From: Paracoccaceae bacterium
GTDB lineage: Bacteria > Pseudomonadota > Alphaproteobacteria > Rhodobacterales > Rhodobacteraceae
Assembly (NCBI GenBank): GCA_014654775.1
Contig: JACVZW010000030.1
Location: forward strand, 62,001 to 126,000
Direction: 5' to 3'
Length of the DNA stretch: 64,000 nt
Below are positions 57,407-60,184 of this stretch, one piece after another (the stretch's first letter is position 1; each line of letters opens with the position of its first letter). Under the pieces are notes generated by a model. It did no database searches. It saw only the letters and a program-made list of their open reading frames with translations, and had not been told where the DNA came from. A program made the translations under genes and the position numbers.

Positions 57407-58096
57407 TCAGGCCAGCCAGCGATCGTAATCCGCCACCAGCAGGTGCTTCGGCGCGACATCTTCTTCGATCTCGGAAAACCGCCCGATCTTCTTGGACACG
57501 AAGACATTGTCGGTGACGTCATCATTCACCGTCGACACCTCGCCGATCAGCACATCGCCGCCCTCGCCCCAGAAGGCATGCCAATCCCCCGGCAGCAGCG
57601 TCACGCTTTCCCCCGGCGCCAAAAGGATCACCTCGCCGCCTGTGAACGCACGCGGCACCCCGTCGCAATAAACCACGCCGCCCTGCGTTTCCGAGAAAGA
57701 TCCGTCCGGGTTCGACCCGTTCAGCCGCACGGCCAGCTTCGCGCCGCCCCGGTTGATGATGTCTTCCGCCTTGATCACATGGGTATGGCAGGGCGAATGC
57801 TGATCCTTGCGCGAAATCAACAGCTTCTCGGCATAGCACATCCCGCCGCCGCGCTGCAGATCGGCCAGCTTGCCGTTCCGCAGGGTGAAGAGGAACAGCC
57901 CCAACTCGTCGAACGCCCCCTGCCCGTAATCGGTGATGTCCCATCCCATCCGCGCGGTGATGATCGCCTGCGCGTCGCCCTTCTTCGCCTTGAACTCCTC
58001 GGGTGACCAATAGGCGAAGGGTGGCAGGACGAACCCGTAATGGCGGATCATCTCATCCGCCGCCGCCATGACCTCGTTGATGCGCGACCGCTTCAT
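57407..58096 (-). CDS. D-lyxose isomerase family protein
   Basis: 229 residues, cupin fold. The central motif HSPCHTHVIKAEDIINRGG and LLPGDWHAFWGEGG hold the metal ligands of D-lyxose ketol-isomerase (D-lyxose to D-xylulose). ATG 58096 has GGAGG upstream. It lies 32 nt after the MATE gene on the same strand, so they may be co-transcribed, although the functional link is not obvious. Confidence 0.85.
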   Translation of the reverse strand: MKRSRINEVMAAADEMIRHYGFVLPPFAYWSPEEFKAKKGDAQAIITARMGWDITDYGQGAFDELGLFLFTLRNGKLADLQRGGGMCYAEKLLISRKDQHSPCHTHVIKAEDIINRGGAKLAVRLNGSNPDGSFSETQGGVVYCDGVPRAFTGGEVILLAPGESVTLLPGDWHAFWGEGGDVLIGEVSTVNDDVTDNVFVSKKIGRFSEIEEDVAPKHLLVADYDRWLA

Positions 58097-58128: not shown

Positions 58129-59484
58129 CTAGACTGACGGGCTTTGCGCCAACAAGGCCGTTCTGCGCCAGAACCGCACCGTCAGCGCCGCGCCTGCCCC
58201 CGCCAAAGCAAGGATATAGCCCGCCCAGATGCCCGACGGCCCCATGCCGCCCCAATGCGCCAGCGCGTATCCAAGAGGCAAGGCCACAGGCCAATAGGCG
58301 ATGGCCGACACCAGCGCGGGCCATGCCGTGTCCGACAGCCCCCGCAGCGACCCCAGCATGGCCGATTGCACCGCATCGCTGATCTGCATCGGCGCGAAGA
58401 CCAGAAAGATCGCCGCCGCCACCGCCACCACTTCCGCATCCTCCGTCACCAGCCGCGCGATGGCCTCGCCCTCCAAGGCCAGCACCAGCGCTGCCGCCAC
58501 CAGCCAGACCCCGGCCACCGCCACAGCGGCCAGCGCAATGGGCCGCAGCGCACCCACATTCTCCGCCCCCCGCTCCTGCGCGACACGGATCGCCACCGCC
58601 CCCGCCACGCCGAGGGGCAGCATATAAAGAAGCCCCCCCACCGCCTGCGCTACCTGATTGCCCGCCAAGGCCACCGTGCCAAAGGCCCCGATCATCAGCG
58701 TCGCCACGCTGACCGAGGCCGTCTCGACCACATACATCGCCCCCAAGGGCGCGCCCTCCCGGAAGGTCAGCCCCATCTCGCGCAGCGCCACCTCGCGCCG
58801 CAGCCGCAGCCGCCGCATCGACGGGGCAAGCCGCCACCACAGGAAGGCCGCCACCAGCGCCACGCACTCCGCCAGAAACGAGGCCAGCCCCGCCCCGGTA
58901 AGGCCCAGCTCCGGCAAGGGCCCGATCCCCCAGATCAGGGCATAGTTCAGAGGCACATTCACCCCCACGCCCAAAAAGGCGAAGGCCGTGCCCAGCCACG
59001 GCTTCTCCACCGCCTCGAAGGCCGATTTGAAGGCCGTCAGGATCGAAAAGGGAATGAGGAAGGCACAGATCCAGAACCAATAGCCCTGCATCGCGCCGAT
59101 CACCTCTTCCGGCTGGCCCAACAGTGGCAACAGAGGCCAGAGCGCCGCCATCACCAGCGCCGACCCCACCCCCACCAACGCCCCCAAGGCCAGCCCAGAC
59201 CGCAGGATGCCCGGGATCGCCAGCCCCGCGCCCGCGCCCCATGCCGTGCCGATCCGCACCGACAGCGCCGACAGCAGGCCGTAGATCGCCGCATAGAAAA
59301 GCACCGCCACCGCGCCCGTGAGTCCGACCGCCGCCAGCGGCACTGGGCCCAGCGGCGCCAGCATCAGCGAATCCGTCACCCCGATCAGCGTGCTCGCCGC
59401 CAGCCCCATCACGATGGGCAGCGCCAGACCCACGATCCCCGGCACCTCGCGCCAGATCGCCCCGATCAATCCCTGCCCCTGCAC
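58129..59484 (-). CDS. MATE-family multidrug efflux transporter
   Basis: 451 residues, 12 predicted helices in two similar halves. MATE hallmarks are ALPIVMGLAASTLIGVTDSLMLAPLG near the start and SMRRLRLRR in the central cytoplasmic loop. It exports cationic compounds using Na+ or H+ gradients. Start GTG 59484 is preceded by GGAAGGG. It is divergent from a TetR gene with two operators in the 64-nt gap, which predicts repression by TetR and induction by a substrate. Confidence 0.9.
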   Translation of the reverse strand: MQGQGLIGAIWREVPGIVGLALPIVMGLAASTLIGVTDSLMLAPLGPVPLAAVGLTGAVAVLFYAAIYGLLSALSVRIGTAWGAGAGLAIPGILRSGLALGALVGVGSALVMAALWPLLPLLGQPEEVIGAMQGYWFWICAFLIPFSILTAFKSAFEAVEKPWLGTAFAFLGVGVNVPLNYALIWGIGPLPELGLTGAGLASFLAECVALVAAFLWWRLAPSMRRLRLRREVALREMGLTFREGAPLGAMYVVETASVSVATLMIGAFGTVALAGNQVAQAVGGLLYMLPLGVAGAVAIRVAQERGAENVGALRPIALAAVAVAGVWLVAAALVLALEGEAIARLVTEDAEVVAVAAAIFLVFAPMQISDAVQSAMLGSLRGLSDTAWPALVSAIAYWPVALPLGYALAHWGGMGPSGIWAGYILALAGAGAALTVRFWRRTALLAQSPSV

Positions 59485-59501
59485 TTGCCGCGCCCTTCCG
59501 T

Positions 59502-59555
59502 TTCACATACGCTCCGTATGTGAACCCCCTAACTCACATACGGGTCGTATGTCAA
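59502..59555. promoter_or_regulatory. twin TetR operators in the MATE/tetR intergenic gap
   Basis: Site 1: TTCACATACG, 3-nt spacer, CGTATGTGAA (59502-59524), a perfect inverted repeat. Site 2: CACATACG, GGT, CGTATGT (59535-59552). Site 2 contains the ATG of tetR and overlaps TTGACA (59555-59550, minus), the likely -35 for MATE (weak -10 TTAGGG 17 nt on). Binding should shut off both genes. Confidence 0.8.
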
Positions 59556-60184
59556 CCACAGCACAAACCGCCGCCACCCCCTCGCCACGCCCGCCGGGCC
59601 GGGCCGAGGCCGCCGAACAGACCGCCGCGCGCCTGATCGCAACCGCCCGACAGGCCTTCGCCACGCAGGGCTTCGCCCATGTCTCGCTGGACGCGCTGGC
59701 GGCCGAGGCGGGCGTCACCCGCGGCGCGCTGCATCACCATTTCCAGAACAAGGCCGGGCTTTTCGAGGCCGTCTTCCGCGCCGTCGATGCCGAGATCGGC
59801 CACGATCTCGATCGCATCTACGAGGCCGAGGATGACCCGTGGCGCGGCCTCACCGCCTGCTACCACGCCTATCTCGACCTTGCCCTCAGCCCCGACCGTG
59901 CGCGCATCATGTTCCGCGACGCCCCTGCCGTGATGGGCGCGCGCGCCATGGACATCCTGATGGAAAGCGGCTTTTCCACCGTGGTCGAGGAATTGACCGG
60001 ACTCATCGCCGCTGGCCGCCTGCGCCCGCTCGACCCGGTCGCCGTGGCGCATCTCTTGAACGGGGCGGTGATGGCGCAGGCGCTCTGGCTTGCGGGCTGC
60101 GACGGTGGCACGGACGCGCAGCGCGCCGCCGCCCATGCCGCGCTAGAGGCCACCTTCGACGGCCTCACCCTGCAGCGCGATTAG
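59549..60184 (+). CDS. TetR-family transcriptional repressor
   Basis: 211 residues. N-terminal helix-turn-helix: ARLIATARQAFATQGFAHVSLDALAAEAGVTRGALHHHFQNKAGLFEAVF (about 27-77), typical TetR. The rest is a helical ligand-binding domain. The ATG lies inside operator site 2, so the transcript probably has a very short or no leader, or a downstream start is used. It overlaps the PuuD-like gene's stop by 4 bp at its 3' end. Confidence 0.9.
   Translation: MSTTAQTAATPSPRPPGRAEAAEQTAARLIATARQAFATQGFAHVSLDALAAEAGVTRGALHHHFQNKAGLFEAVFRAVDAEIGHDLDRIYEAEDDPWRGLTACYHAYLDLALSPDRARIMFRDAPAVMGARAMDILMESGFSTVVEELTGLIAAGRLRPLDPVAVAHLLNGAVMAQALWLAGCDGGTDAQRAAAHAALEATFDGLTLQRD

Follow-up and report, generated by a model that had tools for sequence, protein, structure and literature searches.

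Two predicted TetR operators, one holding the repressor's own start codon, in the control region of a divergent tetR–MATE efflux gene pair of a Paracoccaceae bacterium

Divergent pairs of a TetR repressor gene and an efflux gene are of a textbook kind. For the Rv0078/Rv0077c (EthR2) pair of M. tuberculosis, the passages considered describe 61 bp between the start codons, transcripts that each start inside the 5′ UTR of the other, and a single 21-bp operator that lies over both start points and is bound by two dimers (PMC6016246). MtrR of Neisseria gonorrhoeae controls mtrCDE and rpoH, and the parts of the source at hand give MCRTRCR/YGYAYGK as its structure-derived half-site consensus (PMC8053128). 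In the excerpts available on RolR and AtsR of C. glutamicum, the operator is located in the transcribed leader and the repressor is stated or suggested to act as a roadblock (PMC9210681).

The window analysed here is a stretch of 64,000 nt from a Paracoccaceae bacterium (GCA_014654775.1, contig JACVZW010000030.1, positions 62,001 to 126,000), whose genome comprises 4.52 Mb in 93 contigs. It contains a tetR gene and a divergent MATE family efflux gene, with 64 bp separating the ATG of the former from the GTG (59484) of the latter (Table 1). The TetR protein (P0001) matched the TetR_N helix-turn-helix model PF00440 with 57.9 bits (cut-off 24) and the C-terminal TetR domain PF21351 with 88.3 bits (cut-off 27). 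A palindromic operator at its own promoter, a further mark of the TetR family, is indicated at the level of sequence by conservation. The best PDB sequence match was the TetR-family structure 2HYT (residues 18–208, E 8.8e-35). The MATE protein (P0002) matched the matE model over its full length (TIGR00797, 197.9 bits versus a cut-off of 147.4) and also PF01554, and it stayed below the cut-offs of the NorM equivalogs NF000263 (112.5 versus 950) and NF001214 (167.6 versus 449). Behind the MATE gene and on the same strand lies a D-lyxose isomerase gene (PF07385; 57407–58096, ATG at 58096 on the reverse strand), and it is possible that both genes share one transcript. In five of the six loci L003–L008 this gene likewise follows MATE (none was found in L006), and L032 shows its start. 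At the other end, the tetR stop codon TAG (60182–60184, forward strand) overlaps the stop codon TAA (60183–60181, reverse strand) of a convergent peptidase C26 gene, which is near tetR in several relatives too.

Table 1. Genes and predicted control elements of the tetR–MATE locus (positions in the window)
Feature	Position	Strand	Remarks
MATE family efflux gene	58129–59484	−	451 aa, GTG start, TIGR00797 above cut-off
tetR gene	59549–60184	+	211 aa, Pfam TetR_N and TetR_C_41
Predicted tetR −35, TTGCCG	59485–59490	+	TTG exactly 17 nt away in 15/15 loci
Predicted operator 1	59502–59524	.	TTCACATACG-CTC-CGTATGTGAA, core 59505–59521, perfect 10+3+10 palindrome including flanks
Predicted tetR −10, TACGCT	59508–59513	+	inside operator 1
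Predicted MATE −10, TAGGGG	59526–59531	−	spacing 18, weak
Predicted operator 2	59533–59555	.	CTCACATACG-GGT-CGTATGTCAA, core 59536–59552
tetR start codon, ATG	59549–59551	+	right half of operator 2; same place in 16/17 MATE-linked loci
Predicted MATE −35, TTGACA	59550–59555 (reads 59555–59550)	−	perfect TTGACA, overlaps tetR codons 1–3

Both predicted operator cores are exact palindromes of the half-sites ACATACG and CGTATGT, with a centre-to-centre distance of 31 bp. By base composition the exact motif is expected about 0.004 times per such genome, and it is striking in its exact form, twice, between a regulator gene and its neighbour. Relaxed matching alone is unremarkable: at ≤3 mismatches, two matches were reached in 22 of 100 shuffled versions of the window, and at ≤2 mismatches the bacterium's own genome contained no sites beyond these two (each counted on both strands) versus five for a control pattern, the motif read backward.

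Among 394 genomes of the family, a TetR homologue (E ≤ 1e-25) was found in 12 and the exact motif in seven, all of which belong to these 12 (hypergeometric, 3e-12). All 11 exact sites, including the two of the bacterium's own genome, lie within about 110 bp of a TetR homologue, and the backward control pattern yielded zero matches in every row of this search. Since the exact motif is confined to genomes with a homologue, and stands beside it, ACATACG-N3-CGTATGT is very probably the operator of this TetR protein. That the palindromes are sites of another regulator, or products of chance, would agree with the relaxed matches being no rarer than controls and with a resemblance of the half-sites to those of other TetR proteins in the parts of the source considered (PMC8053128); the restriction of the exact motif to seven genomes, always beside this TetR, makes it highly improbable. 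As to the remaining five homologue genomes, sites with 1–3 mismatches are present in G175, G118, G165 and G091, while in G166 the contig begins inside the gene. Every one of the 11 family homologues whose upstream sequence was available is accompanied by one or more sites at ≤3 mismatches. Further homologues were found in 12 of 19 genomes of the genus and in 14 of 341 genomes of the order at E ≤ 1e-22; the family, genus and order sets overlap, and the tallies were not summed.

For comparison of the control regions 35 loci were kept, of which 17 have a MATE gene next to tetR and 18 show no MATE match in the flanking sequence available. Dropped before counting were L037, L038 and L039 (control regions that by eye match those of L003, L005 and L007, with equal TetR identities), L020 and L042 (gene truncated by the start of the contig) and L009–L015 (partial matches of 28–45% identity from other taxa). 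Some counts refer to a set of 15 MATE-linked loci, which includes L018 and L019 and excludes L021 and L047 (42% identity in TetR, 46% in MATE); 13 of these 15 are close relatives, so that such counts are not independent. The recognition helix reads TRGAL(H/Y)H in 34 of the 35 TetR proteins and TRGAVYH in L046. Each of the 18 loci lacking a MATE match has at least one site at ≤3 mismatches, which argues that the motif tracks the repressor and not the efflux gene. In two of them, L022 and L024, it precedes other divergent genes, and the product of the one in L022 looks RidA-like by eye. Seven loci without MATE (L022, L024, L026, L048, L054, L055 and L058) have a third site between site 2 and the tetR start, at a distance of exactly 23 bp from site 2.

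Within the 15-locus set, the operator 1 core has at most one mismatch in 13 loci, and the operator 2 core has at most three mismatches in 13, with decayed versions in L043 (six mismatches) and L044 (four). Both operators of the original prediction, including their common half-site ACATACG, were recovered as exact palindromes that are conserved beside TetR. Their spacing ranges from 30 to 32 bp among these loci, which rules out a fixed helical phasing.

The ATG at 59549 is the last in-frame ATG, GTG or TTG ahead of the helix-turn-helix. In the window, GTG and ATG codons also occur far upstream in frame with no intervening stop; in eight of 16 MATE-linked loci, the operator ATG is the first such codon after the preceding stop. 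Sixteen of the 17 MATE-linked loci carry the sequence ATGTCAA, whose ATG, the tetR start codon, falls in the right arm of site 2 and overlaps TGTCAA. The exception is L021, where tetR starts downstream behind AAAGGAG and site 2 has an in-frame ATG. All 35 loci have TGTCAA close to the tetR start, versus 0.54 expected from the flanks; it lies at start +1 in the 16 loci and 53 nt upstream of the start in L021. The further proposal that site 2 spans the tetR ATG and, at its edge, the −35 region of the MATE gene thus agrees well with the conserved sequence.

The 16 loci with the start in the operator have a median Shine–Dalgarno pairing of −3.3 kcal/mol versus −8.4 kcal/mol in the other 19 (L021 and the 18 lacking a MATE match; Mann–Whitney, 5e-5). 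Relatedness means that these loci are not all independent, and for the 19 an ATG near the helix-turn-helix was taken as the tetR start, ambiguously so in L022. L022 and L046 pair weakly despite belonging to the 19. A natural test is provided by L043 and L044, which keep operator 1 exact and ATGTCAA intact despite their decayed operator 2. Retention of ATGTCAA there suggests that the start codon and the −35 are under a separate constraint, and operator 1 alone may be sufficient. The reverse case is represented by L008 and L018, whose site 1 carries three mismatches each.

A scan with the sigma-70 consensus found no promoter, which indicates that both promoters are weak by this measure; both −10 sequences are weak. 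In each of the 15 MATE-linked loci, TTG stands exactly 17 nt upstream of the predicted tetR −10, and at any of the other 23 spacings (8 to 31) it occurs in no or one locus; L047 also has TTG at 17 nt, and L021 reads TTGCAT with a 16-nt spacer. The conserved TTGC adjoins the MATE start codon, and in close relatives it is perhaps kept for that reason. The tetR −10 reads TAC(G/C)NT in 14 of the 15 loci, with T at the final position in 14 of 15, and TACGAA in L008 and L047. For the MATE −10, TA is found at spacing 18 in 14 of the 15 loci and at 17 in L019. The conserved pair TTGCNN-N17-TACGNT predicts a tetR transcript start near 59520, by the usual approximation that transcription begins about 7 nt downstream of the −10, and hence a leader of approximately 29 nt that would contain operator 2.

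This predicted leader is at odds with the nearly leaderless tetR transcript originally suggested. Such a transcript would start between the operators or at the ATG itself, placing operator 2 over the starts of both transcription and translation, and it would fit the position of the start codon in an operator, the weak Shine–Dalgarno pairing of the 16 loci and a conserved TA between the operators. We regard it as unlikely, because the promoter pair puts the start well upstream of the ATG, a −10 at 59530–59535 would have no TTG 16–18 nt upstream, and the MATE −10 can account for the conserved TA.

Alternatively, operator 2 might also work as RNA, with a hairpin in the leader that sequesters the AUG and limits translation of tetR. 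When the 23 nt around the start are folded, a 7-bp stem (−6.0 kcal/mol) with the AUG on its 3′ side forms in nine of the 16 loci, and L007, L018 and L047 form a 6-bp stem (−4.8 to −5.7 kcal/mol); a weak Shine–Dalgarno sequence would suit this role. The stem is weak in L040 (−1.1 kcal/mol) and absent in L041, L043 and L044, and DNA binding already accounts for the palindrome, which renders the RNA function quite improbable. A structured RNA leader as such was rejected, since the predicted leader and gene start fold no more strongly than shuffles (z +1.62).

It is conceivable, if rather doubtful, that the tetR start codon of the MATE-linked lineage came from the operator, a single element thereby governing repressor binding, the efflux −35 and slow translation of the repressor. 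The basis for this is that most relatives outside the lineage start tetR downstream with stronger Shine–Dalgarno pairing, whereas the MATE-linked lineage starts at the ATG within the half-site CGTATGT, with weak pairing and with the AUG in a 6–7-bp stem in most members. L021, with its in-frame ATG in site 2 and its Shine–Dalgarno start downstream, looks like an intermediate. A tree of 34 rows (L008 was omitted as too short) did not resolve a single origin of the start-in-operator state; the placement of L047, L023, L046 and L052 was unresolved, several of them standing on long branches.

Taken together, the region most probably is a shared control region of a divergent tetR–MATE efflux pair, in which two TetR operators and overlapping promoters allow joint repression. 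From the sites observed, their conservation, their association with this TetR in the genomes compared and the conserved promoter spacing, we infer binding, start points, repression and induction as follows. A TetR dimer would bind ACATACG-N3-CGTATGT at two places. The promoters would face and overlap each other. That of tetR would be TTGCCG-N17-TACGCT, whose −10 lies within operator 1, and that of MATE would be TTGACA-N18-TAGGGG, whose −35 occupies the edge of operator 2. The two predicted start points fall near 59519–59520, within operator 1. Without inducer, repressor at operator 1 would block both promoters, and repressor at operator 2 would cover the MATE −35 and, at the start codon of tetR, act as a roadblock. 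Release of the repressor would be triggered by a substrate of the MATE pump. The idea that one protein could block both transcription units is in line with the conservation of the sites, the ATG and the MATE −35. A direct block of translation, which had also been considered, is unlikely since the repressor binds DNA; more plausibly, operator 2 acts by covering the MATE −35 and obstructing elongation into tetR.

The arrangement is real, conserved and ordinary in kind, a variation on the very common self-regulated efflux switch, and it leaves the general picture of TetR-controlled efflux unchanged. The start codon in an operator, combined with weak Shine–Dalgarno pairing, is a genuine conserved detail and a modest twist. 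What is gained is a well-supported operator motif, ACATACG-N3-CGTATGT, for a TetR subfamily of this alphaproteobacterial family, which can be used for target searches, and a compact case in which a single DNA element would serve as operator, −35 and start codon. Our search of the open-access literature, a weak negative for that reason, returned no description of the motif in TetR operators overlapping a start codon or holding CGTATGT; in the matched papers considered, CGTATGT occurred in primers only.

With MtrR, the locus shares half-sites that fit MCRTRCR/YGYAYGK, the spacer in the parts of the source considered being N4 versus N3 here and the targets mtrCDE and rpoH rather than a MATE gene (PMC8053128). 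The helix-turn-helix regions are related, the MtrR model matching residues 21–102 of our TetR below its cut-off. The tetR product is no MtrR (NF051852, 63.4 bits versus a cut-off of 280), and it may work similarly. Like RolR and AtsR as described in the excerpts, it would have an operator within a transcribed leader, with a different motif and different target genes (PMC9210681). In a PDB sequence search, residues 20–206 matched the Rv0078/EthR2 structure 5wm9. The passages considered on Rv0078/Rv0077c make no mention of a start codon inside the operator, and neither ATACG nor CGTAT was found in the text of that paper (PMC6016246). As far as these passages describe it, the Rv0078/Rv0077c pair has the same overlapping layout, with 61 bp between the start codons versus 64 bp here, and it differs in using one 21-bp operator bound by two dimers where the present locus has two palindromes (PMC6016246).
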